Origin: Allacma fusca
Lineage: Eukaryota; Arthropoda; Collembola; Symphypleona; Sminthuridae
DNA: 64,000 nt
Direction: 5' to 3'
Assembly: GCA_947179485.1 (NCBI GenBank)
Contig: OX359246.1
Location: 44,681,632 to 44,745,631, forward strand
Shown: in pieces, positions 1 to 64,000 of the stretch
How positions within the stretch are numbered: the first letter of the stretch is position 1
How the letters are laid out: each line of letters starts with the position of its first letter
Translations under genes and position numbers: made by a program
The notes under the pieces: model-generated
The model's input: only the letters and a program-made list of their open reading frames with translations
The model's database searches: none
What the model was told of the DNA's origin: nothing

Positions 1-590
1 AGTGAGACTCCAAGTTTGACTCCAAGTTAGACTCCAAGTTTGACTCGAAGTTAGATTCCAAGTTAGACTCCAAGTTAGACTCCAAGTTAGACTCCAAGTT
101 AAACTCCAAGTTAGACTCCTTGTTAGACTCCAAGTGAGACTCCAAGTTTGACTCCAAGTTTGACTCCAAGTTTGACTCGAAGTTAGATTCCAAGTTAGAC
201 ACCAAGTTAGACTCCAAGTTAGACTCCAAGTTAAACTCTAAGTTAGACTCCAAGTTAGACTCCAAGTTAGACTCCAAGTTAGACTCCAGGTTAGACTCCA
301 AGTTAGACTCCAAGTTAGACTCCAAATTTGAATCCAAGTTAGACTCCAGGTTAGACTCTACGTTTGACTCAGAGTTAGACTCCAAGTTAAACTCCACGTT
401 TGACTCCAAGTTAGACTCCAAGTTAGACTCCAAGTTAGACTCCAAGTTAGACTCCTTGTTAGACTCCAAGTGAGACTCCAAGTTTGACTCCAAGTTGGAC
501 TCCAAGTTAGACTCCAAGTAAGACTCCTAGTTAGACTCCAAGTTAGACTTCAAGTTTGAATCCAAGTTTGACTCCAAGTTAGACTCCAAG
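1..590. repeat. Partial domain I HOR at the left edge
   Basis: This is the tail of a domain I unit cut by the window edge. It has the GACACC variant near 200, the TCTACGTTTGACTCAGAG variant at 358-375, and the GTAAGACTCCTAG motif near 518 that precedes each 16-nt landmark in this domain. It lacks the CGGCTCC pair and the CCAAATAG one-base loss seen in the complete units to the right, so it is a shortened or different unit type. Confidence 0.8.
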
Positions 591-2173
591 TTATAATCGT
601 GGTTGGACTCCAAGTTTGACTCCAAGTTAGATTCCAAGTTAGACTCCAAGTTAGACTCCAAGTTAGATTCCAAGTTAGACTCCAAGTTAGACTCCAAGTT
701 AGACTCCAAATTAAACTACAAGTTACACTCCAAGTTAGACTCCAAGTTAGACTCCAAATTTGAATCCAAGTTAGACTCCAGGTTAGACTCCAAATTTGAA
801 TCCAAGTTAGACTCCAGGTTAGACTCTACGTTTGACTCAGAGTTAGACTCCAAGTTAAACTCCACGTTTGACTCCAAGTTAGACTCCAAGTTAGACTCCA
901 AGTTAGACTCCAAGTTAGACTCCAAGTTAGACTCCAAGTGAGACTCCAAGTTTGACTCCAAGTTAGACTCCAAGTTTGACTCGAAGTTAGATTCCAAGTT
1001 AGACTCCAAGTTAGACTCCAAGTTAGACTCCAAGTTAAACTCCAAGTTAGACTCCTTGTTAGACTCCAAGTGAGACTCCAAGTTTGACTCCAAGTTTGAC
1101 TCCAAGTTTGACTCGAAGTTAGATTCCAAGTTAGACACCAAGTTAGACTCCAAGTTAGACTCCAAGTTAAACTCTAAGTTAGACTCCAAGTTAGACTCCA
1201 AGTTAGACTCCAAGTTAGACTCCAGGTTAGACTCCAAGTTAGACTTCAAGTTAGACTCCAAATTTGAATCCAAGTTAGACTCCAGGTTAGATTCCACGTT
1301 TGACTCCAAGTTAGACTCCTAGTTAGACTCCACGTTTGACTCCAAGTTAAACTCCATGTTAGACTCCAAGTTAGACTCCAAGTTAGACTCCAAGTTAGAC
1401 TCCAAGTTAGACTCCACGTTTGACTCCAAGTTGGACTCCAAGTTAGACTCCAAGTTAGACTCCTAGTTAGACTCCAAGTTAGACTCCAAGTTAGACTCCA
1501 ATTTAGACTCCACGTTTGACTCCAAGTTGGACTCCACGTTAGACTCCAAATTTGAATCCAAGTTAGACTCCAGGTTAGACTCTACGTTTGACTCAGAGTT
1601 AGACTCCAAGTTAAACTCCACGTTTGACTCCAAGTTAGACTCCAAGTTAGACTCCAAGTTAGACTCCAAGTTAGACTCCTTGTTAGACTCCAAGTGAGAC
1701 TCCAAGTTTGACTCCAAGTTAGACTCCAAGTTTGACTCGAAGTTAGATTCCAAGTTAGACTCCAAGTTAGACTCCAAGTTAGACTCCAAGTTAGACTCCA
1801 TGTTAGACTCCAAGTTAGACTCCAAGTTAGACTCCAAGTTAGACTTCAAGTTCGGCTCCAGGTTAGACTCCAAGTTTGACTCCAAGTTCGGCTCCTGGTT
1901 AGACTCCAAGTTAGACTCGAAGTTAGACTCGAACTTAGACTCGAAGTTAGACTCCAAGTTAGACTCGAAGTTAGACTCCAAGTTAGACTCCATGTTAGAC
2001 TCCAAGTTAGACTCCAAGTTAGACTCCAAATAGACTCCAAGTTAGACTCCACGTTAGACTCCACGTTTGACTCCAAGTTGGACTCCAAGTTAGACTCCAA
2101 GTAAGACTCCTAGTTAGACTCCAAGTTAGACTTCAAGTTTGAATCCAAGTTTGACTCCAAGTTAGACTCCAAG
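591..2173. repeat. Domain I HOR, long type, copy 1 (1,583 bp)
   Basis: This unit runs from one TTATAATCGTGGTTGG landmark to the next. It contains two successive segments of the CCAAATTTGAATCC / TGACTCA type. Between them is a segment starting near 1,317 with CCTAGTTAGACTCCACG and a GTTAAACTCCATG variant. The CGGCTCC pair follows at 1,848-1,898, then the CCAAATAG one-base loss at 2,026-2,033. The length is 131 monomers plus 11 bases, as expected for one lost base. Confidence 0.88.
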
Positions 2174-3444
2174 TTATAATCGTGGTTGGACTCCAAGTTT
2201 GACTCCAAGTTAGATTCCAAGTTAGACTCCAAGTTAGACTCCAAGTTAGATTCCAAGTTAGACTCCAAGTTAGACTCCAAGTTAGACTCCAAATTAAACT
2301 ACAAGTTACACTCCAAGTTAGACTCCAAGTTAGACTCCAAATTTGAATCCAAGTTAGACTCCAGGTTAGACTCCAAATTTGAATCCAAGTTAGACTCCAG
2401 GTTAGACTCTACGTTTGACTCAGAGTTAGACTCCAAGTTAAACTCCACGTTTGACTCCAAGTTAGACTCCAAGTTAGACTCCAAGTTAGACTCCAAGTTA
2501 GACTCCAAGTTAGACTCCAAGTGAGACTCCAAGTTTGACTCCAAGTTAGACTCCAAGTTTGACTCGAAGTTAGATTCCAAGTTAGACTCCAAGTTAGACT
2601 CCAAGTTAGACTCCAAGTTAAACTCCAAGTTAGACTCCTTGTTAGACTCCAAGTGAGACTCCAAGTTTGACTCCAAGTTTGACTCCAAGTTTGACTCGAA
2701 GTTAGATTCCAAGTTAGACACCAAGTTAGACTCCAAGTTAGACTCCAAGTTAAACTCTAAGTTAGACTCCAAGTTAGACTCCAAGTTAGACTCCAAGTTA
2801 GACTCCAGGTTAGACTCCAAGTTAGACTCCAAGTTAGACTCCAAATTTGAATCCAAGTTAGACTCCAGGTTAGACTCTACGTTTGACTCAGAGTTAGACT
2901 CCAAGTTAAACTCCACGTTTGACTCCAAGTTAGACTCCAAGTTAGACTCCAAGTTAGACTCCAAGTTAGACTCCTTGTTAGACTCCAAGTGAGACTCCAA
3001 GTTTGACTCCAAGTTAGATTCCAAGTTAGACTCCAAGTTAGACTCCAAGTTAGACTCCAAGTTAGACTCCATGTTAGACTCCAAGTTAGACTCCAAGTTA
3101 GACTCCAAGTTAGACTTCAAGTTCGGCTCCAGGTTAGACTCCAAGTTTGACTCCAAGTTCGGCTCCTGGTTAGACTCCAAGTTAGACTCGAAGTTAGACT
3201 CGAACTTAGACTCGAAGTTAGACTCCAAGTTAGACTCGAAGTTAGACTCCAAGTTAGACTCCATGTTAGACTCCAAGTTAGACTCCAAGTTAGACTCCAA
3301 ATAGACTCCAAGTTAGACTCCACGTTAGACTCCACGTTTGACTCCAAGTTGGACTCCAAGTTAGACTCCAAGTAAGACTCCTAGTTAGACTCCAAGTTAG
3401 ACTTCAAGTTTGAATCCAAGTTTGACTCCAAGTTAGACTCCAAG
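2174..3444. repeat. Domain I HOR, short type, copy 1 (1,271 bp)
   Basis: Landmark-to-landmark unit that lacks the CCTAGTTAGACTCCACG / GTTAAACTCCATG segment of the long type. The two CCAAATTTGAATCC / TGACTCA segments follow each other directly, so the - strand LESN frame stays open from 3,300 down to 2,299. It carries the CGGCTCC pair near 3,120-3,170 and the one-base loss at 3,297-3,304, exactly 1,271 bp from the previous loss. Confidence 0.88.
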
Positions 3445-4907
3445 TTATAATCGTGGTTGGACTCCAAGTTTGACTCCAAGTTAGATTCCAAGTTAGACTC
3501 CAAGTTAGACTCCAAGTTAGATTCCAAGTTAGACTCCAAGTTAGACTCCAAGTTAGACTCCAAATTAAACTACAAGTTACACTCCAAGTTAGACTCCAAG
3601 TTAGACTCCAAATTTGAATCCAAGTTAGACTCCAGGTTAGACTCCAAATTTGAATCCAAGTTAGACTCCAGGTTAGACTCTACGTTTGACTCAGAGTTAG
3701 ACTCCAAGTTAAACTCCACGTTTGACTCCAAGTTAGACTCCAAGTTAGACTCCAAGTTAGACTCCAAGTTAGACTCCAAGTTAGACTCCAAGTGAGACTC
3801 CAAGTTTGACTCCAAGTTAGACTCCAAGTTTGACTCGAAGTTAGATTCCAAGTTAGACTCCAAGTTAGACTCCAAGTTAGACTCCAAGTTAAACTCCAAG
3901 TTAGACTCCTTGTTAGACTCCAAGTGAGACTCCAAGTTTGACTCCAAGTTTGACTCCAAGTTTGACTCGAAGTTAGATTCCAAGTTAGACACCAAGTTAG
4001 ACTCCAAGTTAGACTCCAAGTTAAACTCTAAGTTAGACTCCAAGTTAGACTCCTAGTTAGACTCCACGTTTGACTCCAAGTTAAACTCCATGTTAGACTC
4101 CAAGTTAGACTCCAAGTTAGACTCCAAGTTAGACTCCAAGTTAGACTCCACGTTTGACTCCAAGTTGGACTCCAAGTTAGACTCCAAGTTAGACTCCTAG
4201 TTAGACTCCAAGTTAGACTCCAAGTTAGACTCCAATTTAGACTCCACGTTTGACTCCAAGTTGGACTCCACGTTAGACTCCAAATTTGAATCCAAGTTAG
4301 ACTCCAGGTTAGACTCTACGTTTGACTCAGAGTTAGACTCCAAGTTAAACTCCACGTTTGACTCCAAGTTAGACTCCAAGTTAGACTCCAAGTTAGACTC
4401 CAAGTTAGACTCCTTGTTAGACTCCAAGTGAGACTCCAAGTTTGACTCCAAGTTAGACTCCAAGTTTGACTCGAAGTTAGATTCCAAGTTAGACTCCAAG
4501 TTAGACTCCAAGTTAGACTCCAAGTTAGACTCCATGTTAGACTCCAAGTTAGACTCCAAGTTAGACTCCAAGTTAGACTTCAAGTTCGGCTCCAGGTTAG
4601 ACTCCAAGTTTGACTCCAAGTTCGGCTCCTGGTTAGACTCCAAGTTAGACTCGAAGTTAGACTCGAACTTAGACTCGAAGTTAGACTCCAAGTTAGACTC
4701 GAAGTTAGACTCCAAGTTAGACTCCATGTTAGACTCCAAGTTAGACTCCAAGTTAGACTCCAAATAGACTCCAAGTTAGACTCCACGTTAGACTCCACGT
4801 TTGACTCCAAGTTGGACTCCAAGTTAGACTCCAAGTAAGACTCCTAGTTAGACTCCAAGTTAGACTTCAAGTTTGAATCCAAGTTTGACTCCAAGTTAGA
4901 CTCCAAG
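3445..4907. repeat. Domain I HOR, long type, copy 2 (1,463 bp)
   Basis: Same organisation as 591-2,173 but 120 bp (ten monomers) shorter. The missing segment lies just before the CCTAG motif near 4,052 and corresponds to about 1,190-1,310 of copy 1. The one-base loss is at 4,760-4,767, exactly 1,463 bp from the previous one. Confidence 0.88.
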
Positions 4908-6202
4908 TTATAATCGTGGTTGGACTCCAAGTTTGACTCCAAGTTAGATTCCAAGTTAGACTCCAAGTTAGACTCCAAGTTAGATTCCAAGTTAGACTCC
5001 AAGTTAGACTCCAAGTTAGACTCCAAATTAAACTACAAGTTACACTCCAAGTTAGACTCCAAGTTAGACTCCAAATTTGAATCCAAGTTAGACTCCAGGT
5101 TAGACTCCAAATTTGAATCCAAGTTAGACTCCAGGTTAGACTCTACGTTTGACTCAGAGTTAGACTCCAAGTTAAACTCCACGTTTGACTCCAAGTTAGA
5201 CTCCAAGTTAGACTCCAAGTTAGACTCCAAGTTAGACTCCAAGTTAGACTCCAAGTGAGACTCCAAGTTTGACTCCAAGTTAGACTCCAAGTTTGACTCG
5301 AAGTTAGATTCCAAGTTAGACTCCAAGTTAGACTCCAAGTTAGACTCCAAGTTAAACTCCAAGTTAGACTCCTTGTTAGACTCCAAGTGAGACTCCAAGT
5401 TTGACTCCAAGTTTGACTCCAAGTTTGACTCGAAGTTAGATTCCAAGTTAGACACCAAGTTAGACTCCAAGTTAGACTCCAAGTTAAACTCTAAGTTAGA
5501 CTCCAAGTTAGACTCCAAGTTAGACTCCAAGTTAGACTCCAGGTTAGACTCCAAGTTAGACTCCAAGTTAGACTCCAAATTTGAATCCAAGTTAGACTCC
5601 AGGTTAGACTCTACGTTTGACTCAGAGTTAGACTCCAAGTTAAACTCCACGTTTGACTCCAAGTTAGACTCCAAGTTAGACTCCAAGTTAGACTCCAAGT
5701 TAGACTCCTTGTTAGACTCCAAGTGAGACTCCAAGTTTGACTCCAAGTTAGACTCCAAGTTTGACTCGAAGTTAGATTCCAAGTTAGACTCCAAGTTAGA
5801 CTCCAAGTTAGACTCCAAGTTAGACTCCATGTTAGACTCCAAGTTAGACTCCAAGTTAGACTCCAAGTTAGACTTCAAGTTCGGCTCCAGGTTAGACTCC
5901 AAGTTTGACTCCAAGTTCGGCTCCTGGTTAGACTCCAAGTTAGACTCGAAGTTAGACTCGAACTTAGACTCGAAGTTAGACTCCAAGTTAGACTCGAAGT
6001 TAGACTCCAAGTTAGACTCCATGTTAGACTCCAAGTTAGACTCCAAGTTAGACTCCAAATAGACTCCAAGTTAGACTCCACGTTAGACTCCACGTTTGAC
6101 TCCAAGTTGGACTCCAAGTTAGACTCCAAGTAAGACTCCTAGTTAGACTCCAAGTTAGACTTCAAGTTTGAATCCAAGTTTGACTCCAAGTTAGACTCCA
6201 AG
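4908..6202. repeat. Domain I HOR, short type, copy 2 (1,295 bp)
   Basis: Matches 2,174-3,444 with 24 extra bp (two monomers). It lacks the CCTAG / GTTAAACTCCATG segment and has the one-base loss at 6,055-6,062. With the preceding unit it repeats the long-short pair, giving a dimer period of 2,734 bp measured between the two short units. Confidence 0.88.
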
Positions 6203-7210
6203 TTATAATCGTGGTTGGACTCCAAGTTTGACTCCAAGTTAGATTCCAAGTTAGACTCCAAGTTAGACTCCAAGTTAGATTCCAAGTTAGACTCCAAGTT
6301 AGACTCCAAGTTAGACTCCAAATTAAACTACAAGTTACACTCCAAGTTAGACTCCAAGTTAGACTCCAAATTTGAATCCAAGTTAGACTCCAGGTTAGAC
6401 TCCAAATTTGAATCCAAGTTAGACTCCAGGTTAGACTCTACGTTTGACTCAGAGTTAGACTCCAAGTTAAACTCCACGTTTGACTCCAAGTTAGACTCCA
6501 AGTTAGACTCCAAGTTAGACTCCAAGTTAGACTCCAAGTTAGACTCCAAGTGAGACTCCAAGTTTGACTCCAAGTTAGACTCCAAGTTTGACTCGAAGTT
6601 AGATTCCAAGTTAGACTCCAAGTTAGACTCCAAGTTAGACTCCAAGTTAAACTCCAAGTTAGACTCCTTGTTAGACTCCAAGTGAGACTCCAAGTTTGAC
6701 TCCAAGTTTGACTCCAAGTTTGACTCGAAGTTAGATTCCAAGTTAGACACCAAGTTAGACTCCAAGTTAGACTCCAAGTTAAACTCTAAGTTAGACTCCA
6801 AGTTAGACTCCAAGTTAGACTCCAAGTTAGACTCCAGGTTAGACTCCAAGTTAGACTCCAAGTTAGACTCCAAATTTGAATCCAAGTTAGACTCCAGGTT
6901 AGATTCCACGTTTGACTCCAAGTTAGACTCCTAGTTAGACTCCACGTTTGACTCCAAGTTAAACTCCATGTTAGACTCCAAGTTAGACTCCAAGTTAGAC
7001 TCCAAGTTAGACTCCAAGTTAGACTCCACGTTTGACTCCAAGTTGGACTCCAAGTTAGACTCCAAGTTAGACTCCTAGTTAGACTCCAAGTTAGACTCCA
7101 AGTTAGACTCCAATTTAGACTCCACGTTTGACTCCAAGTTGGACTCCACGTTAGACTCCAAGTTAGACTCCTAGTTAGACTCCAAGTTAGACTTCAAGTT
7201 TGACTCCAAA
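6203..7210. repeat. Domain I HOR, long type, copy 3 (partial)
   Basis: Starts with the landmark and follows long type copy 1 through the CCTAG / GTTAAACTCCATG segment at about 6,930-7,130. It keeps the 120 bp missing in copy 2. It then passes into the new variants of domain II instead of reaching a CGGCTCC pair. The dimer period between long units is 2,854 bp, then 2,758 bp. Confidence 0.85.
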
Positions 7211-8939
7211 TTAAACTACAAGTTACACTCCAAGTTCGGCTCCAAGTTAGACTCCAAATTTGAATCCAAGTTAGACTCCAGGTTAGACTCCACGTTTGAC
7301 TCCAAGTTAGACTCCAAGTTAGACTCCACGTTTGACTCCAAGTTAGACTCCAAGTTAGACTCCAAGTTAGACTCCAAGATAGACTCCAAGTTAGACTCCA
7401 AGTTAGACTCCAAGTTAGACTCCAAGTTAGACTCCAAATTTGACTCTAAGTTAGACTCCATGTTAAACTTCAAGTTAGACTCCAAGTTAGACTCCAAATT
7501 TGACTCCAAGTTTGACTCCAAGTTAGACTCCACGTTTAACTCCAAGTTAGACTCCAGGTTAGACTCCAAGTTAGACTCCAAATTTGAATCCAAGTTAGAC
7601 TCCAGGTTAGACTCCAAGTTAGACCCCACGTTTGACTCCAAGTAAGACTCCAAGTTAGACTCCAAATGGGACTACAAGTTAGACTCCAAGTTAGACTCCA
7701 AGTTAGACTCCAAATTTGACTCCAAGTTAGTCTTCATGTTAAACTCCAAGTTAGACTCCAAGTTAGACTCGAAGTTAGACTCGAAATTGGACTCCAAGTT
7801 ATACTCCAAGTTTGACTCCAAGTTAGACTCCACGTTTGACTCCAAGTTAGACTCCAAGTTAGACTCCAAGTTAGACTCCAAGATAGACTCCAAGTTGGAC
7901 TCCACGTTAGACCCCAAGTTAGACTCCAAGTTAGACTCCAAGTTAGACTCCAAGTTAGACTCCAAGTTAGACTCCAAATTAAACTCCATGTTAGACTCCA
8001 TGTTAGACTCCAAGTTAGACTCCAAGTTAGACTCCTTGTTAGACTCCAAGTGAGACTCCAAGTTTGACTCCAAGTTAGACTCCAAGTTTGACTCGAAGTT
8101 AGATTCCAAGTTAGACTCCAAGTTAGACTCCAAGTTAGACTCCAAGTTAGACTCCATGTTAGACTCCAAGTTAGACTCCAAGTTAGACTCCAAGTTAGAC
8201 TTCAAGTTCGGCTCCAGGTTAGACTCCAAGTTTGACTCCAAGTTCGGCTCCTGGTTAGACTCCAAGTTAGACTCGAAGTTAGACTCGAACTTAGACTCGA
8301 AGTTAGACTCCAAGTTAGACTCGAAGTTAGACTCGAAGTTAGACTCCAAGTAAGACTCCAAGTTAGATTCCAAGTTACACTCCAAGTTAGACTCCAAATT
8401 AGACTCCACGTTTGACTCCAAGTTAGACTCCAGGTTAGACTCCACGTTTGACTCCAAGTTAGACTCCAAGTTAGACTCCAAGTTAGACTCCAAGTTCGGC
8501 TCCAGGTTAGACTCTAAGTTAGACTCGAAGTTAGACTCGAAGTTAGACACCAAGTAAGACTCCAAGTTAGACTCCAAGTTAGACTCCATGTTAGACTCCA
8601 AGTTAGACTCCAAGTTAGACTCCAAATAGACTCCAAGTTAGACTCCACGTTAGACTCCACGTTTGACTCCAAGTTGGACTCCAAGTTAGACTCCAAGTAA
8701 GACTCCTAGTTAGACTCCAAGTTAGACTTGAAGTTATAATCGTGGTTGGACTCCAAGTTTGACTCCAAGTTAGATTCCAAGTTAGACTCCAAGTTAGACT
8801 CCAAGTTAGATTCCAAGTTAGACTCCAAGTTATAATCGTGGTTGGACTCCAAGTTTGACTCCAAGTTAGATTCCAAGTTAGACTCCAAGTTAGACTCCAA
8901 GTTAGATTCCAAGTTAGACTCCAAGTTAGACTCCAAGTT
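7211..8939. repeat. Domain II entry: first block with GTCTTCATG variants
   Basis: The first appearance of several variants absent from 1-7,200: AGACCCCACG near 7,622, CCAAATGGGACTAC near 7,662, GTTAGTCTTCATGTTAAAC at 7,726-7,744 and TATACTCC near 7,800. After these the block returns to the domain I type, with the CGGCTCC pair at about 8,205-8,250 and the one-base loss at 8,622-8,629. It is therefore a fusion of a new unit type to the end of a domain I unit. Confidence 0.85.
8734..8925. repeat. 96-bp tandem duplication holding the 16-nt landmark
   Basis: TTATAATCGTGGTTGG occurs at 8,734 and again at 8,830. The 96 bp (eight monomers) following each are alike. This is the only place where two landmarks sit less than 800 bp apart. 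The first copy is preceded by GACTTGAAG, which looks like a junction variant. Confidence 0.9.
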
Positions 8940-10246
8940 AGACTCCAAATTAAACTACAAGTTACACTCCAACTTAGACTCCAAGTTAGACTCCAAATTT
9001 GACTCCAAGTTTGACTCCAAGTTAGACTCCACGTTTAACTCCAAGTTAGACTCCAGGTTAGACTCCAAGTTAGACTCCAAATTTGAATCCAAGTTAGAAT
9101 CCAGGTTAGACTCCAAGTTAGACCCCACGTTTGACTCCAAGTAAGACTCCAAGTTAGACTCCAAATGGGACTACAAGTTAGACTCCAAGTTGGACTCCAA
9201 GTAAGACTCCAAGTTAGACTCCAAATTTGACTCCAAGTTAGTCTTCATGTTAAACTCCAAGTTAGACTCCAAGTTAGACTCGAAGTTAGACTCGAAATTG
9301 GACTCCAAGTTATACTCCAAGTTTGACTCCAAGTTAGACTCCACGTTTGACTCCAAGTTAGACTCCAAGTTAGACTCCAAGTTAGACTCCAAGATAGACT
9401 CCAAGTTGGACTCCACGTTAGACCCCAAGTTAGACTCCAAGTTAGACTCCAAGTTAGACTCCAAGTTAGACTCCAAGTTAGACTCCAAATTAAACTCCAT
9501 GTTAGACTCCATGTTAGACTCCAAGTTAGACTCCAAGTTAGACTCCTTGTTAGACTCCAAGTGAGACTCCAAGTTTGACTCCAAGTTAGACTCCAAGTTT
9601 GACTCGAAGTTAGATTCCAAGTTAGACTCCAAGTTAGACTCCAAGTTAGACTCCAAGTTAGACTCCATGTTAGACTCCAAGTTAGACTCCAAGTTAGACT
9701 CCAAGTTAGACTTCAAGTTCGGCTCCAGGTTAGACTCCAAGTTTGACTCCAAGTTCGGCTCCTGGTTAGACTCCAAGTTAGACTCGAACTTAGACTCGAA
9801 CTTAGACTCGAAGTTAGACTCCAAGTTAGACTCGAAGTTAGACTCGAAGTTAGACTCCAAGTAAGACTCCAAGTTAGATTCCAAGTTACACTCCAAGTTA
9901 GACTCCAAATTAGACTCCACGTTTGACTCCAAGTTAGACTCCAGGTTAGACTCCACGTTTGACTCCAAGTTAGACTCCAAGTTAGACTCCAAGTTAGACT
10001 CCAAGTTCGGCTCCAGGTTAGACTCTAAGTTAGACTCGAAGTTAGACTCGAAGTTAGACACCAAGTAAGACTCCAAGTTAGACTCCAAGTTAGACTCCAA
10101 ATAGACTCCAAGTTAGACTCCACGTTAGACTCCACGTTTGACTCCAAGTTGGACTCCAAGTTAGACTCCAAGTAAGACTCCTAGTTAGACTCCAAGTTAG
10201 ACTTCAAGTTTGAATCCAAGTTTGACTCCAAGTTAGACTCCAAGTT
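8940..10246. repeat. 1,307-bp tandem pair, copy 1
   Basis: Starts near CCAAATTAAACTACAAG at 8,946. It contains the GTCTTCATG variant at about 9,242, the CGGCTCC pair at about 9,715-9,765 and the one-base loss at 10,097-10,104. Every marker recurs 1,307 bp downstream. One visible difference between copies is GTTGGACTCC at about 9,188 against GTTAGACTCC at the matching place. Boundaries are uncertain by about 25 bp because the flanks are also monomers. Confidence 0.85.
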
Positions 10247-14008: not shown

Positions 14009-14106
14009 CGTTAGACTCCACGTTTGACTCCAAGTTGGACTCCAAGTTAGACTCCAAGTAAGACTCCTAGTTAGACTCCAAGTTAGACTTCAAGTTTGAA
14101 TCCAAG

Positions 14107-51500: not shown

Positions 51501-51900
51501 TTTGACTCCAAGTTAGTCTTCATGTTAAATTCCAAGTTAGACTCCAAGTTAAACTCGAAGTTAGACTCGAAATTGGACTCCAAGTTATACTCCAAGTTTG
51601 ACTCCAAGTAAGACTCCACGTTTGACTCCAAGTTAGACTCCAAAATAGACTCCACGTTTGACTCCAAGTAAGACTCCAAGTTTGACTCCAAGTTGGACTC
51701 CAGGTTAGACTCCAAGTTAGACTCCAAGTTAGACTCCAAGTTAGACTCCAAGTTAGACTGCAAGTAAGACTCCAAGTTAGACTCCAAGTTCGACTCCAAG
51801 TTCGACTGCAAGTTAGACTCCAAGTTAGACTGCAAGTTAGACTCCAAGTTAGACTAAAAGTTAGACAGCAAGTTAGACTGCAAGTTAGACTGCAAGTTAG
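48551..51900. repeat. 3.3-kb block, right member of a distant pair
   Basis: Matches 27,126-30,438 in variant order, with landmarks at 48,933, 49,905 and 51,105 and an eight-A tract at 50,790-50,797. The + strand KLDS translation at 49,302-49,844 is identical to that at 27,876-28,418. Differences include an intact register where the left member lost a base, and whole-monomer gains and losses near 50.6-51.4 kb. Confidence 0.8.
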
Positions 51901-53155: not shown

Positions 53156-54600
53156 GTCAGACTAAAAGTTAGACTCCAAGTTAGACTCCAAGTTAGACTC
53201 CAAGTTAGACTCCAAGTTAGACTCCAAGTTAGAACCCAAGTTAGACTCCAAGTTAGACTCCAAGTTAGACTCCAAGTATGACTCCAAGTTAGACTCCAAA
53301 TTAAACTCTATGTTAGACTCCATGTTAGACTCCAAGTTAGACTCCAAAAAAACTCCAAGTTAGACTCTAAGTTAGACTCCACGTTTGACTCCAAGTTTGA
53401 CTCCAAGTTAGACTCCAAAATTGATTCAAAGATAGACTCCAAGTAAGACTCCAAGTTAAACTCCAAGTTTGACTCCAAGTTAGTCTTCATGTTAAACTCC
53501 AAGTTTGACTCCAAGTTTGACTCCAAGTTTGACTCCAAGTTTGACTCCAAGTTAGATTCCAAGTTAGACTCCAAGTTAGACTCGAAGTTAGACTCCAATT
53601 TAGACTCTAAATTTGAATCCAAGTTAGACTCCAGGTTAGACTCCACGTTTGACTCCAAGTTTCACTCCAAGTTAGACTCCAAGATAGACTCCAAGTTAGA
53701 CTCCAAGTTAGACTCCAAGTTAGACTTCAAATTTGACTCCAAGTTAGATTCCATGTTAAACTTCAAGTTAGACTCCAAGTTAGACTCCAAGTTAGACTCG
53801 AAGTTAGACTCGAAGTTAGACTCCAAGTTTGACTCCAAGTTAGACTCCACGTTTGACTCCAAGTTAGACTCCAAGTTAGACTCCAAGTTAGACTCCAAGT
53901 TAGACTCCACGTTTGACTCCAAGTTGGACTCCAAGTTAGACTCCTAGTTAGACTCCAAGTTAGACTTCAAGTTTGACTCCAAGTTTGACTCCAAGTTAGA
54001 CTCCAAGTTATAATCGTGGTTGGACTCCAAGTTTGACTCCAAGTTAGATTCCAAGTTAGACTCCAAGTTAGACTCCAAGTTAGACTCCAAGTTAGACTCC
54101 AAGTTAGACTCCAAGTTAGACTCCAAGTTAAACTCCAAGTTACACTCCAAGTGAGACTCCAAGTTAGACTCCAAATTTGAATCCAAGTTAGACTCCAGGT
54201 TAGACTCCAAGTTTGACTCCAAGTTAGACTCCAAGTTAGACTCCACGTTTGACTCCAAGTTAGACTCCAAGTTAGACTCCAAGTTAGACTCCAAGATAGA
54301 CTCCAAGTTAGTCTCCAAGTTAGACTCCAAGTTAGACTCCAAGTTAGACTCCAAATTTGACTCCAAGTTAGACTCCATGTTAAACTTCAAGTTTAACTCC
54401 AAGTTAGACTCCAAGTTTGACTCCAAGTTTGACTCCAAGTTAGACTCCAAATTTGACTCCAAGTTAGTCTTCATGTTAAATTCCAAGTTAGACTCCAAGT
54501 TAGGCTCGAAGTTAGACTCGAAATTGGACTCCAAGTTATACTCCAAGTTTGACTCCAAGTAAGACTCCACGTTTGACTCCAAGTTAGACTCCAAAATAGA
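53156..54600. repeat. Copy of the 43-44 kb unit, also repeated at +1,354
   Basis: Variant order from 53,162 to about 54,010 matches 42,987-43,833 at an offset of exactly 10,175 bp. The first part recurs again 1,354 bp downstream (53,308 to 54,662; landmark 54,008 to 55,362). The seven-A tract is at 53,346-53,352. The offset of 1,354 is 112 monomers plus 10, because two one-base losses lie between. Confidence 0.82.
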
Positions 54601-54718
54601 CTCTATGTTAGACTCCATGTTAGACTCCAAGTTAGACTCCAAAAAAACTCCAAGTTAGACTCTATGTTAGACTCCATGTTAGACTCCAAGTTAGACTCCA
54701 AAAAAACTCCAAGTTAGA
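54601..54718. repeat. 59-bp tandem duplication spanning the seven-A tract
   Basis: CTCTATGTTAGACTCCATG begins at 54,601 and again at 54,660. Each copy includes a seven-A tract (54,641-54,647 and 54,700-54,706). The period is five monomers minus one base, so this duplication happened after the base loss and copied it. Confidence 0.92.
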
Positions 54719-56964
54719 CTCTAAGTTAGACTCCACGTTTGACTCCAAGTTTGACTCCAAGTTAGACTCCAAAATTGATTCAAAGATAGACTCCAAGTAA
54801 GACTCCAAGTTAAACTCCAAGTTTGACTCCAAGTTAGTCTTCATGTTAAACTCCAAGTTTGACTCCAAGTTTGACTCCAAGTTTGACTCCAAGTTTGACT
54901 CCAAGTTAGATTCCAAGTTAGACTCCAAGTTAGACTCGAAGTTAGACTCCAATTTAGACTCTAAATTTGAATCCAAGTTAGACTCCAGGTTAGACTCCAC
55001 GTTTGACTCCAAGTTTCACTCCAAGTTAGACTCCAAGATAGACTCCAAGTTAGACTCCAAGTTAGACTCCAAGTTAGACTTCAAATTTGACTCCAAGTTA
55101 GATTCCATGTTAAACTTCAAGTTAGACTCCAAGTTAGACTCCAAGTTAGACTCGAAGTTAGACTCGAAGTTAGACTCCAAGTTTGACTCCAAGTTAGACT
55201 CCACGTTTGACTCCAAGTTAGACTCCAAGTTAGACTCCAAGTTAGACTCCAAGTTAGACTCCACGTTTGACTCCAAGTTGGACTCCAAGTTTAACTCCTA
55301 GTTAGACTCCAAGTTAGACTTCAAGTTTGACTCCAAGTTTGACTCCAAGTTAGACTCCAAGTTATAATCGTGGTTGGACTCCAAGTTTGACTCCAAGTTA
55401 GATTCCAAGTTAGACTCCAAGTTAGACTCCAAGTTAGATTCCAGGTTAGACTCCAAGTTAGACTCCAAGTTAGACTCCAAGTTAAACTCCAAGTTACACT
55501 CCAAGTTAGACTCCAAGTTAGACTCCAAATTTGAATCCAAGTAAGACTCCAGGTTAGACTCCACGTTTGACTCCAAGTTAGACTCCAAGTTAGACTCCAC
55601 GTTTGACTCCAAGATAGACTCCAAATTAGACTCCAAGTTAGACTCCAAATTTGACTCCAAGTTAGACTCCATGTTAAACTTCAAGTTAGACTCCACGTTT
55701 GACTCCAAGTTAGACTCCAAGTTAGACTCCAAGTTAGACTCCAAGATAGACTCCAAGTTAGACTCCAAGTTAGACTCCAAGTTAGACTCCAAGTTAGACT
55801 CCAAATTTGACTCCAAGTTAGACTCCATGTTAAACTTCAAGTTAAACTCCAAGTTAGACTCCAAGTTTGACTCCAAGTTTGACTCCAAGTTTGACTCCAA
55901 GTTAGACTCCAAATTTGACTCCAAGTTAGTCTTCATGTTAAACTCCAAGTTAGACTCCAAGTTAGACTCGAAGTTAGACTCGAAATTGGACTCCAAGTTA
56001 TACTCCAAGTTTGACTCCAAGTTAGACTCCACGTTTGACTCCAAGTTAGACTCCAAGTTAGACTCCAAGTTAGACTCCAAGTTAGACTGCAAGTAAGACT
56101 CCAAGTTAGACTCCAAGTTCGACTCCAAGTTAGACTGCAAGTTAGACTCCAAGTTAGACTGCAAGTTAGACTCCAAGTTAGACTAAAAGTTAGACAGCAA
56201 GTTAGACTGCAAGTTAGACTGCAAGTTAGACTCCAAGTTAGACTAAAAGTTAGACTCCAAGTCAGACTAAAAGTTAGACTCCAAGTTAGACTCCAAGTTA
56301 GACTTCAAGTTAGACTCCAAGTTAGAACCCAAGTTAGACTCCAAGTTAGACTCCAAGTTAGACTCCAAGTATGACTCCAAGTTAGACTCCAAATTAAACT
56401 CTATGTTAGACTCCATGTTAGACTCCAAGTTAGACTCCAAAAAAACTCCAAGTTAGACTCTAAGTTAGACTCCACGTTTGACTCCAAGTTTGACTCCAAG
56501 TTAGACTCCAAAATTGATTCAAAGATAGACTCCAAGTAAGACTCCAAGTTAAACTCCAAGTTTGACTCCAAGTTAGTCTTCATGTTAAACTCCAAGTTTG
56601 ACTCCAAGTTTGACTCCAAGTTTGACTCCAAGTTTGACTCCAAGTTAGATTCCAAGTTAGACTCCAAGTTAGACTCGAAGTTAGACTCCAATTTAGACTC
56701 TAAATTTGAATCCAAGTTAGATTCCATGTTAGACTCCAAGTTAGACTTCAAATTTGACTCCAAGTTAGATTCCATGTTAAACTTCAAGTTAGACTCCAAG
56801 TTAGACTCCAAGTTAGACTCGAAGTTAGACTCGAAGTTAGACTCCAAGTTTGACTCCAAGTTAGACTCCACGTTTGACTCCAAGTTAGACTCCAAGTTAG
56901 ACTCCAAGTTAGACTCCAAGTTAGACTCCACGTTTGACTCCAAGTTGGACTCCAAGTTAGACTC
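54719..56964. repeat. HOR segment with landmark at 55,362
   Basis: The left part repeats 53.4-54.1 kb at +1,354. The right part is a unit like 36.3-37.1 kb, followed by a GACTAAAAG / GACTGCAAG cluster at about 56,080-56,280 and a seven-A tract at 56,439-56,445. GTTTAACTCCTAG near 55,290 is a private variant. The 16-nt landmark spacing to the next copy is 1,667 bp, with one lost base. Confidence 0.78.
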
Positions 56965-58524
56965 CTAGTTAGACTCCAAGTTAGACTTCAAGTTTGACTC
57001 CAAGTTTGACTCCAAGTTAGACTCCAAGTTAAAATCGTGGTTGGACTCCAAGTTTGACTCCAAGTTAGATTCCAAGTTAGACTCCAAGTTAGACTCCAAG
57101 TTAGATTCCAGGTTAGACTCCAAGTTAGACTCCAAGTTAGACTCCAAGTTAAACTCCAAGTTACACTCCAAGTTAGACTCCAAGTTAGACTCCAAATTTG
57201 AATCCAAGTAAGACTCCAGGTAAGACTCCACGTTTGACTCCAAGTTAGACTCCAAGTTAGACTCCACGTTTGACTCCAAGATAGACTCCAAATTAGACTC
57301 CAAGTTAGACTCCAAATTTGACTCCAAGTTAGACTCCATGTTAAACTTCAAGTTAGACTCCACGTTTGACTCCAAGTTAGACTCCAAGTTAGACTCCAAG
57401 TTAGACTCCAAGATAGACTCCAAGTTAGACTCCAAGTTAGACTCCAAGTTAGACTCCAAGTTAGACTCCAAATTTGACTCCAAGTTAGACTCCATGTTAA
57501 ACTTCAAGTTAAACTCCAAGTTAGACTCCAAGTTTGACTCCAAGTTTGACTCCAAGTTAGACTCCAAATTTGACTCCAAGTTAGTCTTCATGTTAAACTC
57601 CAAGTTAGACTCCAAGTTAGACTCGAAGTTAGACTCGAAATTGGACTCCAAGTTATACTCCAAGTTTGACTCCAAGTTAGACTCTACGTTTGACTCCAAG
57701 TTAGACTCCAAGTTAGACTCCACGTTTGACTCCAAGTAAGACTCCAAGTTTGACTCCAAGTTAGACTCCAGGTTAGATTCCAAGTTAGACTCCAAGTTAG
57801 ACTCCAAGTTAGACTCCAAGTTAGACTCCAGGTTAGACTCCAAGTTAGACTCCAAGTTAGACTCCAAGTTCGACTCCAAGTTCGACTGCAAGTTAGACTC
57901 CAAGTTAGACTGCAAGTTAGACTGCAAGTTAGACTCCTAGTTAAACTCCAAGATAGACTAAAAGTTAGACTGCAAGTTAGACTCCAAATTAGACTGCAAG
58001 TTAGGATCCAAGTCAGACTAAAAGTTAGACTCCAAGTTAGACTAAACGTTAGACTCCAAGTTAGACTCCAAGTTAGACTCCAAGTTAGACTCCAAGTTAG
58101 ACTCCAAGTTAGACTCCAAGTTAGAACCCAAGTTAGACTCCAAGTTAGACTCCAAGTTAGACTCCAAGTTTGACTCCAAGTTAGACTCCAAGTTAGACTC
58201 CACGTTTGACTCCAAGTTTCACTCCAAGTTAGACTCCAAGATAGACTCCAAGTTAGACTCCAAGTCAGACTCCAAGTTAGACTCCAAGTTAGACTTCAAA
58301 TTTGACTCCAAGTTAGATTCCATGTTAAACTTTAAGTTAGACTCCAAGTTAGACTCCAAGTTAGACTCCAAGTTAGACTCGAAGTTAGACTCGAAGTTAG
58401 ACTCCAAGTTTGACTCCAAGTTAGACTCCAAGTTAGACTCCAAGTTAGACTCCAAGTTAGACTCCAAGTTAGACTCCAAGTTAGACTCCACGTTTGACTC
58501 CAAGTTGGACTCCAAGTTAGACTC
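56965..58524. repeat. 1,560-bp tandem pair, copy 1
   Basis: Most markers recur 1,560 bp (130 monomers) downstream. The landmark here, at 57,029, reads TTAAAATCGTGG and is the only altered copy among 38. The unit resembles those at 36.3-37.9 kb and 43.8-45.1 kb, with CCTAGTTAAAC near 57,936 and TTTAAGTTAG near 58,330. Confidence 0.85.
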
Positions 58525-59640
58525 CTAGTTAGACTCCAAGTTAGACTTCAAGTTTGACTCCAAGTTTGACTCCAAGTTAGACTCCAAGTTATAATCGTGG
58601 TTGGACTCCAAGTTTGACTCCAAGTTAGATTCCAAGTTAGACTCCAAGTTAGACTCCAAGTTAGATTCCAGGTTAGACTCCAAGTTAGACTCCAAGTTAG
58701 ACTCCAAGTTAAACTCCAAGTTACACTCCAAGTTAGACTCCAAGTTAGACTCCAAATTTGAATCCAAGTAAGACTCCAGGTTAGACTCCACGTTTGACTC
58801 CAAGTTAGACTCCAAGTTAGACTCCACGTTTGACTCCAAGATAGACTCCAAATTAGACTCCAAGTTAGACTCCAAATTTGACTCCAAGTTAGACTCCATG
58901 TTAAACTTCAAGTTAGACTCCACGTTTGACTCCAAGTTAGACTCCAAGTTAGACTCCAAGTTAGACTCCAAGATAGACTCCAAGTTAGACTCCAAGTTAG
59001 ACTCCAAGTTAGACTCCAAGTTAGACTCCAAATTTGACTCCAAGTTAGACTCCATGTTAAACTTCAAGTTAAACTCCAAGTTAGACTCCAAGTTTGACTC
59101 CAAGTTTGACTCCAAGTTAGACTCCAAATTTGACTCCAAGTTAGTCTTCATGTTAAACTCCAAGTTAGACTCCAAGTTAGACTCGAAGTTAGACTCGAAA
59201 TTGGACTCCAAGTTATACTCCAAGTTTGACTCCAAGTTAGACTCCACGTTTGACTCCAAGTTAGACTCCAAGTTAGACTCCACGTTTGACTCCAAGTAAG
59301 ACTCCAAGTTTGACTCCAAGTTAGACTCCAGGTTAGATTCCAAGTTAGACTCCAAGTTCGGCTCCAAGTTAGACTCCAAGTTAGACTCCAAGTTAGACTC
59401 CAAGTTAGACTCCAAGTTAGACTCCAAGTTCGACTCCAAGTTCGACTGCAAGTTAGACTGCAAGTTAGACTCCTAGTTAAACTCCAAGTTAGACTAAAAG
59501 TTAGACTGCAAGTTAGACTCCAAATTAGACTGCAAGTTAGGATCCAAGTTAAACTAAAAGTTAGACTCCAAGTTAGTTTAAACGTTAGACTCCAAGTTAG
59601 ACTCCAAGTTAGACTCCAAGTTAGACTCCAAGTTAGACTC
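58525..59640. repeat. 1,560-bp tandem pair, copy 2
   Basis: Copy of the preceding unit with a normal landmark at 58,589, the last in the window. A CGGCTCC variant at about 59,358 is missing from copy 1. CCTAGTTAAAC comes at about 59,472. Whole-monomer losses make the copy shorter toward its right end. Confidence 0.82.
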
Positions 59641-62201
59641 CAAGTTAGACTCCAAGTTAGAACCCAAGTTAGACTCCAAGTTAGACTCCAAGTTAGACTC
59701 CAAGTTTGACTCCAAGTTAGACTCCAAGTTTCACTCCAAGTTAGACTCCAAGATAGACTCCAAGTTAGACTCCAAGTTAGACTCCAAGTTAGACTTCAAA
59801 TTTGACTCCAAGTTAGACTCCATGTTAAACTTCAAGTTAAACTCCAAGTTAGACTCCAAGTTAGACTCCAAGTTTGACTCCAAGTTAGACTCCTAATTAG
59901 ACTCCAAGTTAGACTCCAAGATAGACTCCAAGTTAGACTCCAAGTTAGACTCCAAGTTAGACTCCAAATTTGACTCCAAGTTAGACTCCATGTTAAAATT
60001 CAAGTTAAACTCCAAGTTAGACTCCAAGTTAGACTCCAAGTTTGACTTCAAGTTAGACTCCAAATTTGACTTCAAGTTAGTCTTCATGTTAAACTCCAAG
60101 TTAGACTCCAAGTTAGACTCGAAGTTAGACTCCAAGTTCGACTCCAAGTTCGACTGCAAGTTAGACTCCAAGTTAGACTGCAAGTTAGACTCCAAGTTAG
60201 ACTCCAAGTTAGACTCCAAGTTAGACTAAAAGTTAGACTGCAAGTTAGACTCCAAATTAGACTGCAAGTTAGGATCCAAGTTAGACTAAAAGTTAGACTC
60301 CAAGTTAGACTAAACGTTAGACTCCAAGTTAGACTCCAAGTTAGACTCCAAGTTAGACTCCAAGTTAGACTCCAAGTTAGACTCCAAGTTAGAACCCAAG
60401 TTAGACTCCAAGTTAGACTCCAAGTTAGACTCCAAGTTTGACTCCAAGTTAGACTCCAAGATAGACTCCAAGTTAGACTCCAAATTTGACTCCAAGTTAG
60501 ACTCCATGTTAAACTTCAAGTTAGACTCCACGTTTGACTCCAAGTTAGACTCCAAGTTAGACTCCAAGTTAGACTCCAAGATAGACTCCAAGTTAGACTC
60601 CAAGTTAGACTCCAAGTTAGACTCCAAGTTAGACTCCAAGTTAGACTCCAAATTTGACTCCAAATTTGACTCCAAGTTAGAATCCACGTTAAACTTCAAG
60701 TTAAACTCCAAGTTAGACTCCAAGTTTGACTCCAAGTTTGACTCCAAGTTAGACTCCAAATTTGACTCCAAGTTAGTCTTCATGTTAAACTCCAAGTTAG
60801 ACTCCAAGTTAGACTCGAAGTTAGACTCGAAATTGGACTCCAAGTTATACTCCAAGTTTGACTCCAAGTTAGACTCCAAGTTTGACTCCAAGTTAGACTC
60901 CAAGTTAGACTCCACGTTTGACTCCAAGTAAGACTCCAAGTTTGACTCCAAGTTAGACTCCAGGTTAGATTCCAAGTTAGACTCCAAGTTCGGCTCCAAG
61001 TTAGACTCCAAGTTAGACTCCAAGTTAGACTCCAAGTTAGACTCCAAGTTAGACTCCAAGTTAGACTGCAAGTAAGACTCCAAGTTAGACTCCAAGTTCG
61101 ACTCCAAGTTCGAATGCAAGTTAGACTGCAAGTTAGACTGCAAGTTAGACTCCAAGTTTGACTCCAAGTTTGACTCCAAGTTAGACTCCAAATTTGACTC
61201 CAAGTTAGTCTTCATGTTAAACTCCAAGTTAGACTCCAAGTTAGACTCGAAGTTAGACTCCAAGTTCGACTCCAAGTTCGACTGCAAGTTAGACTCCAAG
61301 TTAGACTGCAAGTTAGACTCCAAGTTAGACTCCAAGTTAGACTCCAAGTTAGACTCCAAGTTAGACTAAAAGTTAGACTGCAAGTTAGACTCCAAATTAG
61401 ACTGCAAGTTAGGATCCAAGTTAGACTAAAAGTTAGACTCCAAGTTAGACTAAACGTTAGACTCCAAGTTAGACTCCAAGTTAGACTCCAAGTTAGACTC
61501 CAAGTTAGACTCCAAGTTAGACTCCAAGTTAGAACCCAAGTTAGACTCCAAGTTAGACTCCAAGTTAGACTCCAAGTTTGACTCCAAGTTAGACTCCAAG
61601 ATAGACTCCAAGTTAGACTCCAAATTTGACTCCAAGTTAGACTCCATGTTAAACTTCAAGTTAGACTCCACGTTTGACTCCAAGTTAGACTCCAAGTTAG
61701 ACTCCAAGTTAGACTCCAAGATAGACTCCAAGTTAGACTCCAAGTTAGACTCCAAGTTAGACTCCAAGTTAGACTCCAAGTTAGACTCCAAATTTGACTC
61801 CAAGTTAGAATCCATGTTAAACTTCAAGTTAAATTTCAAGTTAGACTCCAAGTTTGACTCCAAGTTTGACTCCAAGTTAGACTCCAAATTTGACTCCAAG
61901 TTAGTCTTCATGTTAAACTCCAAGTTAGACTCCAAGTTAGACTCGAAGTTAGACTCCAAGTTAGACTCCAAGTTAGACTCCAGGTTAGATTCCAAGTTAG
62001 ACTCCAAGTTCGGCTCCAAGTTAGACTCCAAGTTAGACTCCAAGTTAGACTCCAAGTTAGACTCCAAGTTAGACTCCAAGTTAGACTGCAAGTAAGACTC
62101 CAAGTTAGACTCCAAGTTCGACTCCAAGTTCGACTGCAAGTTAGACTGCAAGTTAGACTGCAAGTTAGACTCCAAGTTAGACTCCAAGTTAGACTCCAAG
62201 T
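59641..62201. repeat. Landmark-free units with a 1.13-1.14-kb duplication
   Basis: The 16-nt landmark is gone from here on. TTAGACTAAACG at 60,308-60,319 recurs at 61,448-61,459, and GACTCCATG at about 60,502 recurs at 61,642, both at +1,140. The left edge of the pair aligns at +1,128, a difference of one monomer. Variants CCTAATTAG near 59,890 and GTTAAAATTCAAG near 59,994 are private. Confidence 0.8.
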
Positions 62202-63136
62202 TAGCTTAAAAGTTAGACTGCAAGTTAGACTCCAAGTTTGACTCCAAGTTAGACTCCAAATTAAACTCTATGTTAGACTCCATGTTAGACTCCAAGTTAG
62301 ACTCCAAAAAAACTCCAAGTTAGACTCTAAGTTAGACTCCACGTTTGACTCCAAGTTTGACTCCAAGTTAGACTCCAAAATTGACTCCAAGATAGACTCC
62401 AAGTAAGACTCCAAGTTACACTCCAAGTTTGACTCCAAGTTAGTCTTCATGTTAAACTCCAAGTTTGACTCCAAGTTAGACTCCAAGTTAGACTCCAAGA
62501 TAGACTCCAAGTTAGACTCCAAATTTGACTCCAAGTTAGACTCCAAGATAGACTCCAAGATAGACTCCAAATTTGACTCCAAGTTAGACTCCATGTTAAA
62601 CTTCAAGTTAGACTCCACGTTTGACTCCAAGTTAGACTCCAAGTTAGACTCCAAGTTAGACTCCAAGATAGACTCCAAGTTAGACTCCAAGTTAGACTCC
62701 AAGTTAGACTCCAAGTTAGACTCCAAATTTGACTCCAAGTTAGATTCCATGTTAAACTTCAAGTTAAACTCCAAGTTAAACTCCAAGTTAGACTCCAAGT
62801 TAGACTCCAAGTTAGACTCCAAGTTAGACTCCAAGTTTGACTCCAAGTTAGACTCCAAGTTAGACTCCACGTTTGACTCCAAGTAAGACTCCAAGTTTGA
62901 CTCCAAGTTAGACTCCAGGTTAGATTCCAAGTTAGACTCCAAGTTCGGCTCCAAGTTAGACTCCAAGTTAGACTCCAAGTTAGACTCCAAGTTAGACTCC
63001 AAGTTAGACTCCAAGTTAGACTGCAAGTAAGACTCCAAGTTAGACTCCAAGTTCGACTCCAAGTTCGACTGCAAGTTAGACTGCAAGTTAGACTGCAAGT
63101 TAGACTCCAAGTTAGACTCCAAGTTAGACTCCAAGT
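62202..63136. repeat. 935-bp tandem pair, copy 1
   Basis: TTAGCTTAAAAG at 62,201 recurs at 63,136, and the seven-A tract at 62,306-62,312 recurs at 63,241-63,247. The period is 78 monomers minus one, the lost base being in the A tract. The unit joins the A-tract segment typical of 33-57 kb directly to landmark-free monomers. Confidence 0.87.
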
Positions 63137-64000
63137 TAGCTTAAAAGTTAGACTGCAAGTTAGACTCCAAGTTTGACTCCAAGTTAGACTCCAAATTAAA
63201 CTCTATGTTAGACTCCATGTTAGACTCCAAGTTAGACTCCAAAAAAACTCCAAGTTAGACTCTAAGTTAGACTCCACGTTTGACTCCAAGTTTGACTCCA
63301 AGTTAGACTCCAAAATTGACTCCAAGATAGACTCCAAGTAAGACTCCAAGTTACACTCCAAGTTTGACTCCAAGTTAGACTTCATGTTAAACTCCAAGTT
63401 TGACTCCAAGTTTGACTCCAAGATAGACTCCAAGTTAGACTCCAAGTTAGACTCCAAGATAGACTCCAAGTTAGACTCCAAATTTGACTCCAAGTTAGTC
63501 TTCATGTTAAACTCCAAGTTTGACTCCAAGTTTGACTCCAAGATAGACTCCAAGTTAGACTCCAAGTTAGACTCCAAGATACACTCCAAGTTAGACTCCA
63601 AATTTGACTCCAAGTTAGACTCCAAGATAGACTCCAAGATAGACTCCAAATTTGACTCCAAGTTAGACTCCATGTTAAACTTCAAGTTAGACTCCACGTT
63701 TGACTCCAAGTTAGACTCCAAGTTAGACTCCAAGGTAGACTCCAAGATAGACTCCAAGTTAGACTCCAAGTTAGACTCCAAGTTAGACTCCAAGTTAGAC
63801 TCCAAATTTGACTCCAAGTTAGACTCCATGTTAAACTTCAAGTTAAACTCCAAGTTAAACTCCAAGTTAGACTCCAAGTTAGACTCCAAGTTAGACTCCA
63901 AGTTAGACTCCAAGTTTGACTCCAAGTTAGACTCCAAGTTAGACTCCACGTTTGACTCCAAGTAAGACTCCAAGTTTGACTCCAAGTTAGACTCCAGGTT
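63137..64000. repeat. 935-bp tandem pair, copy 2, cut by the window edge
   Basis: Continues the pattern of 62,202-63,136 with a 120-bp gain near 63,384 and a further small gain, so the offset grows to about 1,079 bp at the right. The array runs on past 64,000. Confidence 0.85.
63384..63623. repeat. 120-bp tandem duplication
   Basis: TTCATGTTAAACTCC followed by two TTTGACTCC monomers and CAAGATAG occurs at 63,381 and again 120 bp (ten monomers) later. Copy 1 has GTTAGACTTCATG and copy 2 the usual GTTAGTCTTCATG. Copy 2 also has CCAAGATACACTCC near 63,580. Confidence 0.88.

Follow-up and report, generated by a model that had tools for sequence, protein, structure and literature searches.

Contig C8 of the Allacma fusca genome assembly, which we strongly infer to be chromosome 2 of this springtail, carries between positions 44681632 and 44745631 a stretch of 64,000 bases (hereafter the window, numbered 1-64000) that is filled from end to end by a 12-bp satellite, designated family B. 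Tandem Repeats Finder reports a single array across the 64,000 bases, with a period of 12, 5,335 copies, and a monomer identity of 86%, and cyclic alignment divides the window into 5,336 monomers, of which 5,311 are 12 bp long and 24 are 11 bp long, with a single fragment at the end. The commonest of the 142 monomer types, AGTTAGACTCCA, accounts for 2,188 copies, and the window is thus a satellite in the usual sense, with a short unit arrayed head to tail over a long distance. Family B was present at the C8 points sampled from 44,566,397 to ~44,807,800, an array of ~240 kb. Its left limit is a gap of 200 N at 44,566,197-44,566,396, which separates it from another family (A), and at 44,807,808 it gives way abruptly, without a gap, to a related 12-bp unit, AGCTTAACTACA (family C), which was seen at points sampled up to 44,860,999; non-satellite DNA is found again at 44,865,000. 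Partner searches for copies used a core of 104 contiguous kb of the C8 array, window included, and genome searches covered 392,743,791 bases in 91 contigs (75,608,127 in C8, 81,893,619 in C1, and 14,936 in C91, which carries COX1). All results come from one assembled haplotype.

A first-pass annotation of this DNA had described a nested hierarchy of duplications, from 12 bp to about 7.4 kb, that a comparison of monomer strings should make visible. Such a comparison, in which identical monomers weighted by their rarity were scored along every off-diagonal, revealed runs at the listed offsets, with 412 segments scoring at least 50, 1,372 scoring at least 25, and a maximum of 1,120, although these segments are not independent, as nested copies multiply the counts. 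Among the controls, the highest score was 16 in three permutations of the monomer order and 34 in three first-order Markov strings, which gave 12-20 segments of at least 25. Copy pairs of at least 300 bp, with partners drawn from the 104 kb, cover 94.5% of the window at an identity of at least 99%, 83% at 99.5%, and 34% exactly. A strict scan for tandem segments in the same 104 kb returned 0, 0, and 2 segments with units of 1, 2-3, and 4-6 monomers, the last class being that of the 59-bp duplication (control means of 2.4, 1.5, and 1.3, respectively), and 9 segments with units of 7-11 monomers, compared with 0.1 in controls; the Markov controls, searched up to 119 monomers, contained no segment with a unit above 11. 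The hierarchy is therefore real, and the window is confirmed as a record of multi-scale local copying that extends from tens of bp to 7.4 kb.

All 13 of the offsets originally listed were found among the duplications collected in Table 1. The larger ones are mostly clean tandem blocks, those of 935, 1,140, 1,560, and ~3,250 bp persist as shorter, eroded matches, and those of 12, 59, and 120 bp are weak. The offset of ~3,250 bp can be equated with 3,227 bp at 55120 or, much more clearly, with the offsets of 3,322 and 3,346 bp at 10783-17354. The 12-bp step gains no separate support, with a lag-1 excess that ranks 8th among the lags compared and no segment of 1-3 monomers in the strict scan. Between the two copies of the ~7.4-kb duplication, the offset is 7,389 bp at 30373 and then 7,377 and 7,437 bp, with in-register indels of 1 and 5 monomers. 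The 828-bp and 1,007-bp pairs and the four-copy set of 1.27-1.46 kb are additional to the earlier list.

Table 1. Satellite array, marker monomers, and duplications in the window (coordinates 1-64000)
Feature	Position	Strand	Details
Family B 12-bp satellite array, AGTTAGACTCCA	1..64000	+	5,336 head-to-tail monomers, 142 types; gap-free, without N
Local repeat set, units of ~1.27-1.46 kb	493..6896	+	Copies at 1741, 3012, 4475, 5770; 86 shared monomers identical in 4 of 4
11-bp monomer AATAGACTCCA	2029..16430	+	Ten copies; marker of local domain I
96-bp tandem duplication	8732..8923	+	Strict tandem scan
1,307-bp tandem duplication	8917..11549	+	1,331 bp matched, 1 internal mismatch
~3.3-kb tandem duplication	10783..17354	+	Offset 3,322 then 3,346; 1 base difference in 3,214 bp; one 2-monomer indel
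2,028-bp tandem duplication	17741..21830	+	169 monomers; 2,033 bp exact
12-bp duplication (TCGAAG run)	22382..22441	+	Five consecutive AGTTAGACTCGA monomers
1,536-bp tandem duplication	23256..26353	+	128 monomers; 1,569 bp exact
828-bp pair (older)	25022..26653	+	99.0%; looser scan
Three 1,344-bp units	29209..33288	+	112 monomers; pairwise 5-10 base differences
~7.4-kb tandem duplication	30373..45162	+	616 monomers; copies 30373-37725 and 37762-45162; 10 base differences in ~7.34 kb
1,007-bp tandem pair	33145..35074	+	Recurs in second 7.4-kb copy at 40534-42463
11-bp monomer AAAAAACTCCA	33493..63252	+	Twelve copies; marker of the window's right half
Two 1,344-bp units inside second 7.4-kb copy	37786..40677	+	
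120-bp duplications	51799 and 63385		Weak scores, 21 and 17
59-bp tandem duplication	54606..54723	+	5 monomers, one of them a rare 11-bp monomer
3,227-bp offset pair	55120..59114	+	768 bp, 99.48%; overlaps in part the 1,560-bp pair at 56787
1,560-bp offset pair	56787		1,104 bp at 99.28%
1,140-bp offset pair	60181..61803	+	483 bp exact
935-bp offset pair	61971..63408	+	503 bp, 1 difference

The copied blocks are far more alike than the monomers that compose them (99-100% versus 86%), as is characteristic of higher-order repeats (HORs). The other hallmark of HORs, a regular array built from many repeats of a single unit, does not apply here, as each unit is present in 2-5 copies and unit length shifts along the window. 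The nesting allows some of the events to be ordered. Three 1,344-bp units, two of them within the 7.4-kb copy, had been recognized correctly, and the window holds five such units in total, starting at 29209, 30553, 31897, 37942, and 39286. Base differences among units 1-3 number 7, 10, and 5, and units 2 and 4 differ by 2, as do units 3 and 5. Because the differences between copies (2) are fewer than those between units (5-10), the 1,344-bp triplication is the earlier event, and units 2 and 3 were copied afterwards by the 7.4-kb duplication, whose unit begins within the triplet; pairwise identity can thus order the events, as had been proposed. The 1,007-bp pair has 3 differences in the first 7.4-kb copy and 2 in the second, too few for it to be ordered against the 7.4-kb event. 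Judging from the small counts of 0 or 1 difference, the 2,028-, 1,536-, and 1,307-bp and 3.3-kb duplications are probably younger.

Apart from the fragment at its end, the window departs from the 12-bp length only in four distinct 11-bp variants, two present in 10 and 12 copies and two as singletons. On each side, the same two neighbouring monomers flank 8 of the 10 copies of AATAGACTCCA and 11 of the 12 copies of AAAAAACTCCA, and because of this near-constant context each multi-copy variant most likely had a single origin and was then copied. The remaining monomers are all of 12 bp; therefore, junctions and indels in the window correspond to whole numbers of monomers. Between neighbouring segments, 60 changes of lag amount to 1-17 whole monomers, many of them representing one event seen repeatedly. 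The copies in the window hold the 12-bp monomer register, as is expected of unequal exchange, which refines the earlier description. Homology-guided pairing predicts such register keeping, whereas homology-free joining would break the register in most events. At the junctions of nine clean two-copy events, selected from 19 large ones (5 of the 9 lie left of the window), identity averages 24 bp, compared with 14 bp at random in-register points (P = 0.047, n = 9 events), a weak indication from these sequences that duplication junctions may prefer local identity.

Copying in the array is local. To measure its reach, 10-kb pieces of the C8 array were compared for the proportion of exact 80-mers that they have in common. 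The median share is 0.54 (range 0.19-0.85) for pieces whose starts are 10 kb apart, and at separations of 20, 40, 50, and 100 kb it declines to 0.30, 0.09, 0.06, and 0.02, respectively. Among ordered pairs of pieces at least 50 kb apart, 94 of 104 share no more than 0.10, and the matched fraction in the 104 kb, which is 0.0071 for distances of 0.8-1.6 kb, drops to 0.00025 past 51 kb. The 80-mer shares also delimit local domains: the pieces from 44.66-44.70 Mb share 0.45-0.85, three pieces from 44.71-44.74 Mb share 0.54-0.70, and the last two core pieces share 0.54, with neighbours across domain edges sharing 0.19-0.39. The first domain extends further left, because L009 and L010, two of the sampled pieces left of the core, share 0.13-0.42 with it; L008, also on the left, and L015, at the right edge, share no more than 0.10 with any core piece. 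The two 11-bp markers occupy separate parts of the window, consistent with a domain edge near 20-30 kb. For pieces from C1, the share with some C8 pieces rises to 0.23, and C8 pieces share no more than 0.03 with those of C1; we take the C1 sharing to represent runs of pure consensus.

The scales of copying are unevenly filled in the 104-kb core, a second refinement of the first-pass annotation. When each 10-monomer word in the window is paired with its next identical occurrence, spacings below 0.8 kb account for 0.7% of the covered positions, those of 0.8-2.6 kb for 61.6%, and those beyond 10 kb for 10.5%; next-copy spacings below 0.8 kb make up 1.8% in the 104 kb. By the strict scan, and with nested copies recounted, the tandem segments of the core form two groups, 17 whose units span 4-31 monomers and 19 whose units span 74-210 monomers, with none between, so that unit lengths fall at 48-372 bp and at 887 bp or more, with none at 384-876 bp. 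Measured with 120-mers, spacings below 0.8 kb amount to ~1% in L008, 6% in L009, and less than 1% in L010, and to ~24% in L015 and 28% in a piece from C1. Because the last two show about a quarter, the rarity of short spacings is confined to the C8 core. The size gap was rejected as a general rule: L015 contains units of 420 and 708 bp, family C has a unit of 348 bp, the window itself holds the 828-bp pair, and short spacings are common on C1. Reduced tandem activity to the left of the core was likewise considered and rejected: in L008-L010, no units of at least 4 monomers emerged from the strict scan, yet exact self-repeats of 1,240-1,473 bp are present there. As the strict scan missed larger or non-adjacent units in these pieces, we claim no age gradient.

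These spacings were compared with coarse simulations, in which gains and losses occur at random positions under a few size laws and no setting fits all spacing classes. In 39 of 39 simulated settings, the mean share below 0.8 kb exceeds the 0.7% of the window, reaching 7-63% for models with frequent small events. Among 192 tandem-only runs, 6 are as low as the window below 0.8 kb, all under size laws that start at 70 monomers.

We consider it likely that the array, which we regard as non-coding, was shaped by in-register, out-of-place recombinational repair, in the form of unequal sister exchange and/or break-induced replication, together with small slippage. Broken or stalled DNA would re-pair out of place, in the 12-bp register, on the sister chromatid or a nearby segment, and each such repair would duplicate a block, mostly of ~0.8-2.6 kb and of up to 7.4 kb in the window, presumably with matching block deletions elsewhere. 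Later events would copy earlier duplications and so produce nesting, and steps of 1 to ~20 monomers would reflect replication slippage. We infer the enzymes, and crossover or break-induced replication as the route, behind the copies, the order of some events, the register, and the local decay that the array displays. In human U2OS cells, change in centromere arrays needs RAD52 and PIF1, and out-of-register repair has been proposed (PMC11034957). The hierarchy had been attributed at first pass to unequal exchange or replication-based copying at many scales in one array. Multi-scale copying in one array is borne out; the route stays between the two as worded there, because unequal crossover and break-induced replication are predicted to leave the same end products within one haplotype and so are inseparable here.

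If replication slippage or template switching at forks had made all sizes alone, without homologous exchange, one would expect the in-register steps of 1-17 monomers that separate copies and the tandem pairs of 84-372 bp. A dominance of slippage, however, predicts common short spacings, and the share below 0.8 kb in the window lies below all 39 simulated means, an argument limited to the C8 core. Slippage across 2-7 kb is implausible, and we regard this explanation as unlikely. Runs of the same unit, such as the three 1,344-bp units and the four-copy set of 1.27-1.46 kb, together with exact 0.6-kb copies 11-13 kb apart, could also reflect rolling-circle amplification and reinsertion of excised circles; circles should yield many copies of one length, whereas most tandem units here have about two copies and a length that varies by event, which makes this origin very improbable. 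False duplication during assembly has to be weighed because the array is hard to assemble, and the 200-N gap between families A and B means that the scaffold is incomplete here. The window, though, is without N, its duplicated units are shorter than typical HiFi reads, and several copy pairs hold private substitutions and indels, even if the 1,536-bp pair is exact. The published assembly is of HiFi type with a quality value (QV) of 58.7 (PMC10427803), and this too counts against an artefact, for which we see only a slight chance. Selection on a repetitive protein gene, encoding LDSK or VRLQ repeats, has the least to recommend it: the 12-bp unit is in frame, and an open frame of 949 codons runs along the minus strand at 46991-49840, but this is the sole frame of at least 600 codons in 64 kb, and the monomer AGTTATAATCGT, with 37 copies, places a TAA stop in the LDSK frame. 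We give such a gene practically no credence.

Several observations weigh against in-register, local recombinational repair as a complete account. Outside the window the register is looser: departures from the 12-bp length in the 104 kb number 44 at 11 bp, three at 13 bp, and one at 9 bp, besides one end fragment, and non-12 monomers, counted individually, make up 17 of 836 in L009, 19 of 835 in L010, and 82 of 860 in L017 (family C). Identity at the junctions exceeds the random level only weakly, and one of the nine values is negative, the match being shorter than the unit. Locality has exceptions: of the 104 ordered pairs separated by at least 50 kb, 10 have shares greater than 0.10, the highest being 0.30. 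The 10.5% of spacings beyond 10 kb was reached in 2 of 192 tandem-only runs, and in 0 of 192 was it combined with the rarity below 0.8 kb. Because no run matched both spacing features, simple tandem exchange is insufficient, and conversion-like or larger events are needed; short copies at a distance are in excess, which suggests extra conversion-like transfers or larger, since-eroded events.

A more specific, and on present evidence rather doubtful, possibility is a minimum stride, by which in-register events below ~0.8 kb would be strongly suppressed between slippage-size and kb-size steps, with separate transfers of 0.5-1.5 kb over 10-25 kb. The pattern comes from the C8 core and is lacking at the right edge and on C1. 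If such a stride were real, the satellite would record the smallest offset of out-of-place re-pairing in germ-line repair.

Related 12-bp families were found on C1 (17.31, 17.545-17.727, and 18.80 Mb), C10 (52.88 Mb), and C44 (12-15 kb); as the genome search scored only some candidates, this list of other loci is partial. Family A, GTTTAATTCCAA, occupies C8 44,530,000-44,566,196, to the left of the 200-N gap, and is near-invariant compared with the 142-type array of the window: 4 of 5 sampled pieces (6,001 bases in all) are without a variant, and the fifth has 2 mismatches to the next unit. Its exact 36-mers number 7,762 forward and 40 reverse genome-wide, and it also occurs near 18.80 Mb of C1. 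Family C has 12,685 exact 36-mers genome-wide, the most of the three families counted. In a separate count, forward 36-mers came to 2,471, an excess over a rough estimate of ~1,500 for C8 extrapolated from sampled counts. On C1, family B lies in reverse orientation at the points sampled from ~17.555 to 17.727 Mb, adjoining family C. The switch from B to C is abrupt, without a gap, and in the same order on C8 (44,807,808) and on C1 (near 17.555 Mb). A breakpoint shared by the two contigs was not supported, since the junction sequences differ, and a layered A-B-C order as one continuous C8 locus was likewise unsupported for A-B, given the 200-N gap between them. The related arrays lie on C1, C8, C10, and C44, and were not shown on every chromosome; together, these families are a candidate for a shared heterochromatin or centromere satellite group.

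Elsewhere in the genome, nuclear copies of mitochondrial DNA were observed on C12 (57.62 and 58.14 Mb), C5 (4.64 Mb), and C8 (22.97-22.99 and 30.03 Mb), with 96.6-98.4% identity to C91 over ~2.2 kb. In several of them, the COX1 match is broken only by TGA, which specifies W in the mitochondrial code. At the right end of C8, the last 10 kb begin with 5,000 N, and the remaining 5 kb contain a truncated 18S rRNA gene (Rfam) that runs off the end; no run of three TTAGG units is present in this 10 kb. On C1, TTAGG runs do occur close to the right end.

In the literature searched on the Allacma fusca genome and on Collembola or springtail satellites, where subscription papers were mostly absent, we found no account of this satellite, and a term search of a genetics paper on the species (PMC9630974) found none of the words satellite, tandem, centromer, or repeat. 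Few satellite papers on springtails appear in that literature, and the array offers a compact, readable case in which clean events, few substitutions, and 1-bp deletion markers make size, order, and register countable. Allacma fusca is thought to have paternal genome elimination (PMC10427803), and satellites could be traced through this chromosome loss.

The process, unequal or replication-based exchange within satellites, is a known one, of which this array is an unusually clear example. A short satellite of ~12 bp is familiar from arthropod heterochromatin in the form of the Drosophila dodeca satellite, whose sequence is unrelated to AGTTAGACTCCA. Nested multi-monomer duplications are shared with the HORs of alpha satellite, although the monomers of the latter are ~171 bp and its arrays are long and regular. 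In human satellites 2 and 3 (HSat2,3), an ancestral CATTC unit has given rise to kb-scale units, for example the 1.77-kb unit of HSat2, and the change has been attributed to unequal crossover or sequence conversion (PMC4022460). Like HSat2,3, family B is a very short ancestral unit that has diverged into kb-scale repeats; unlike them, it is built on an unrelated 12-bp unit that does not derive from CATTC, is organized in the window not as a single long-running unit but in local sets of two to five copies whose length shifts, and extends over ~240 kb rather than megabases.

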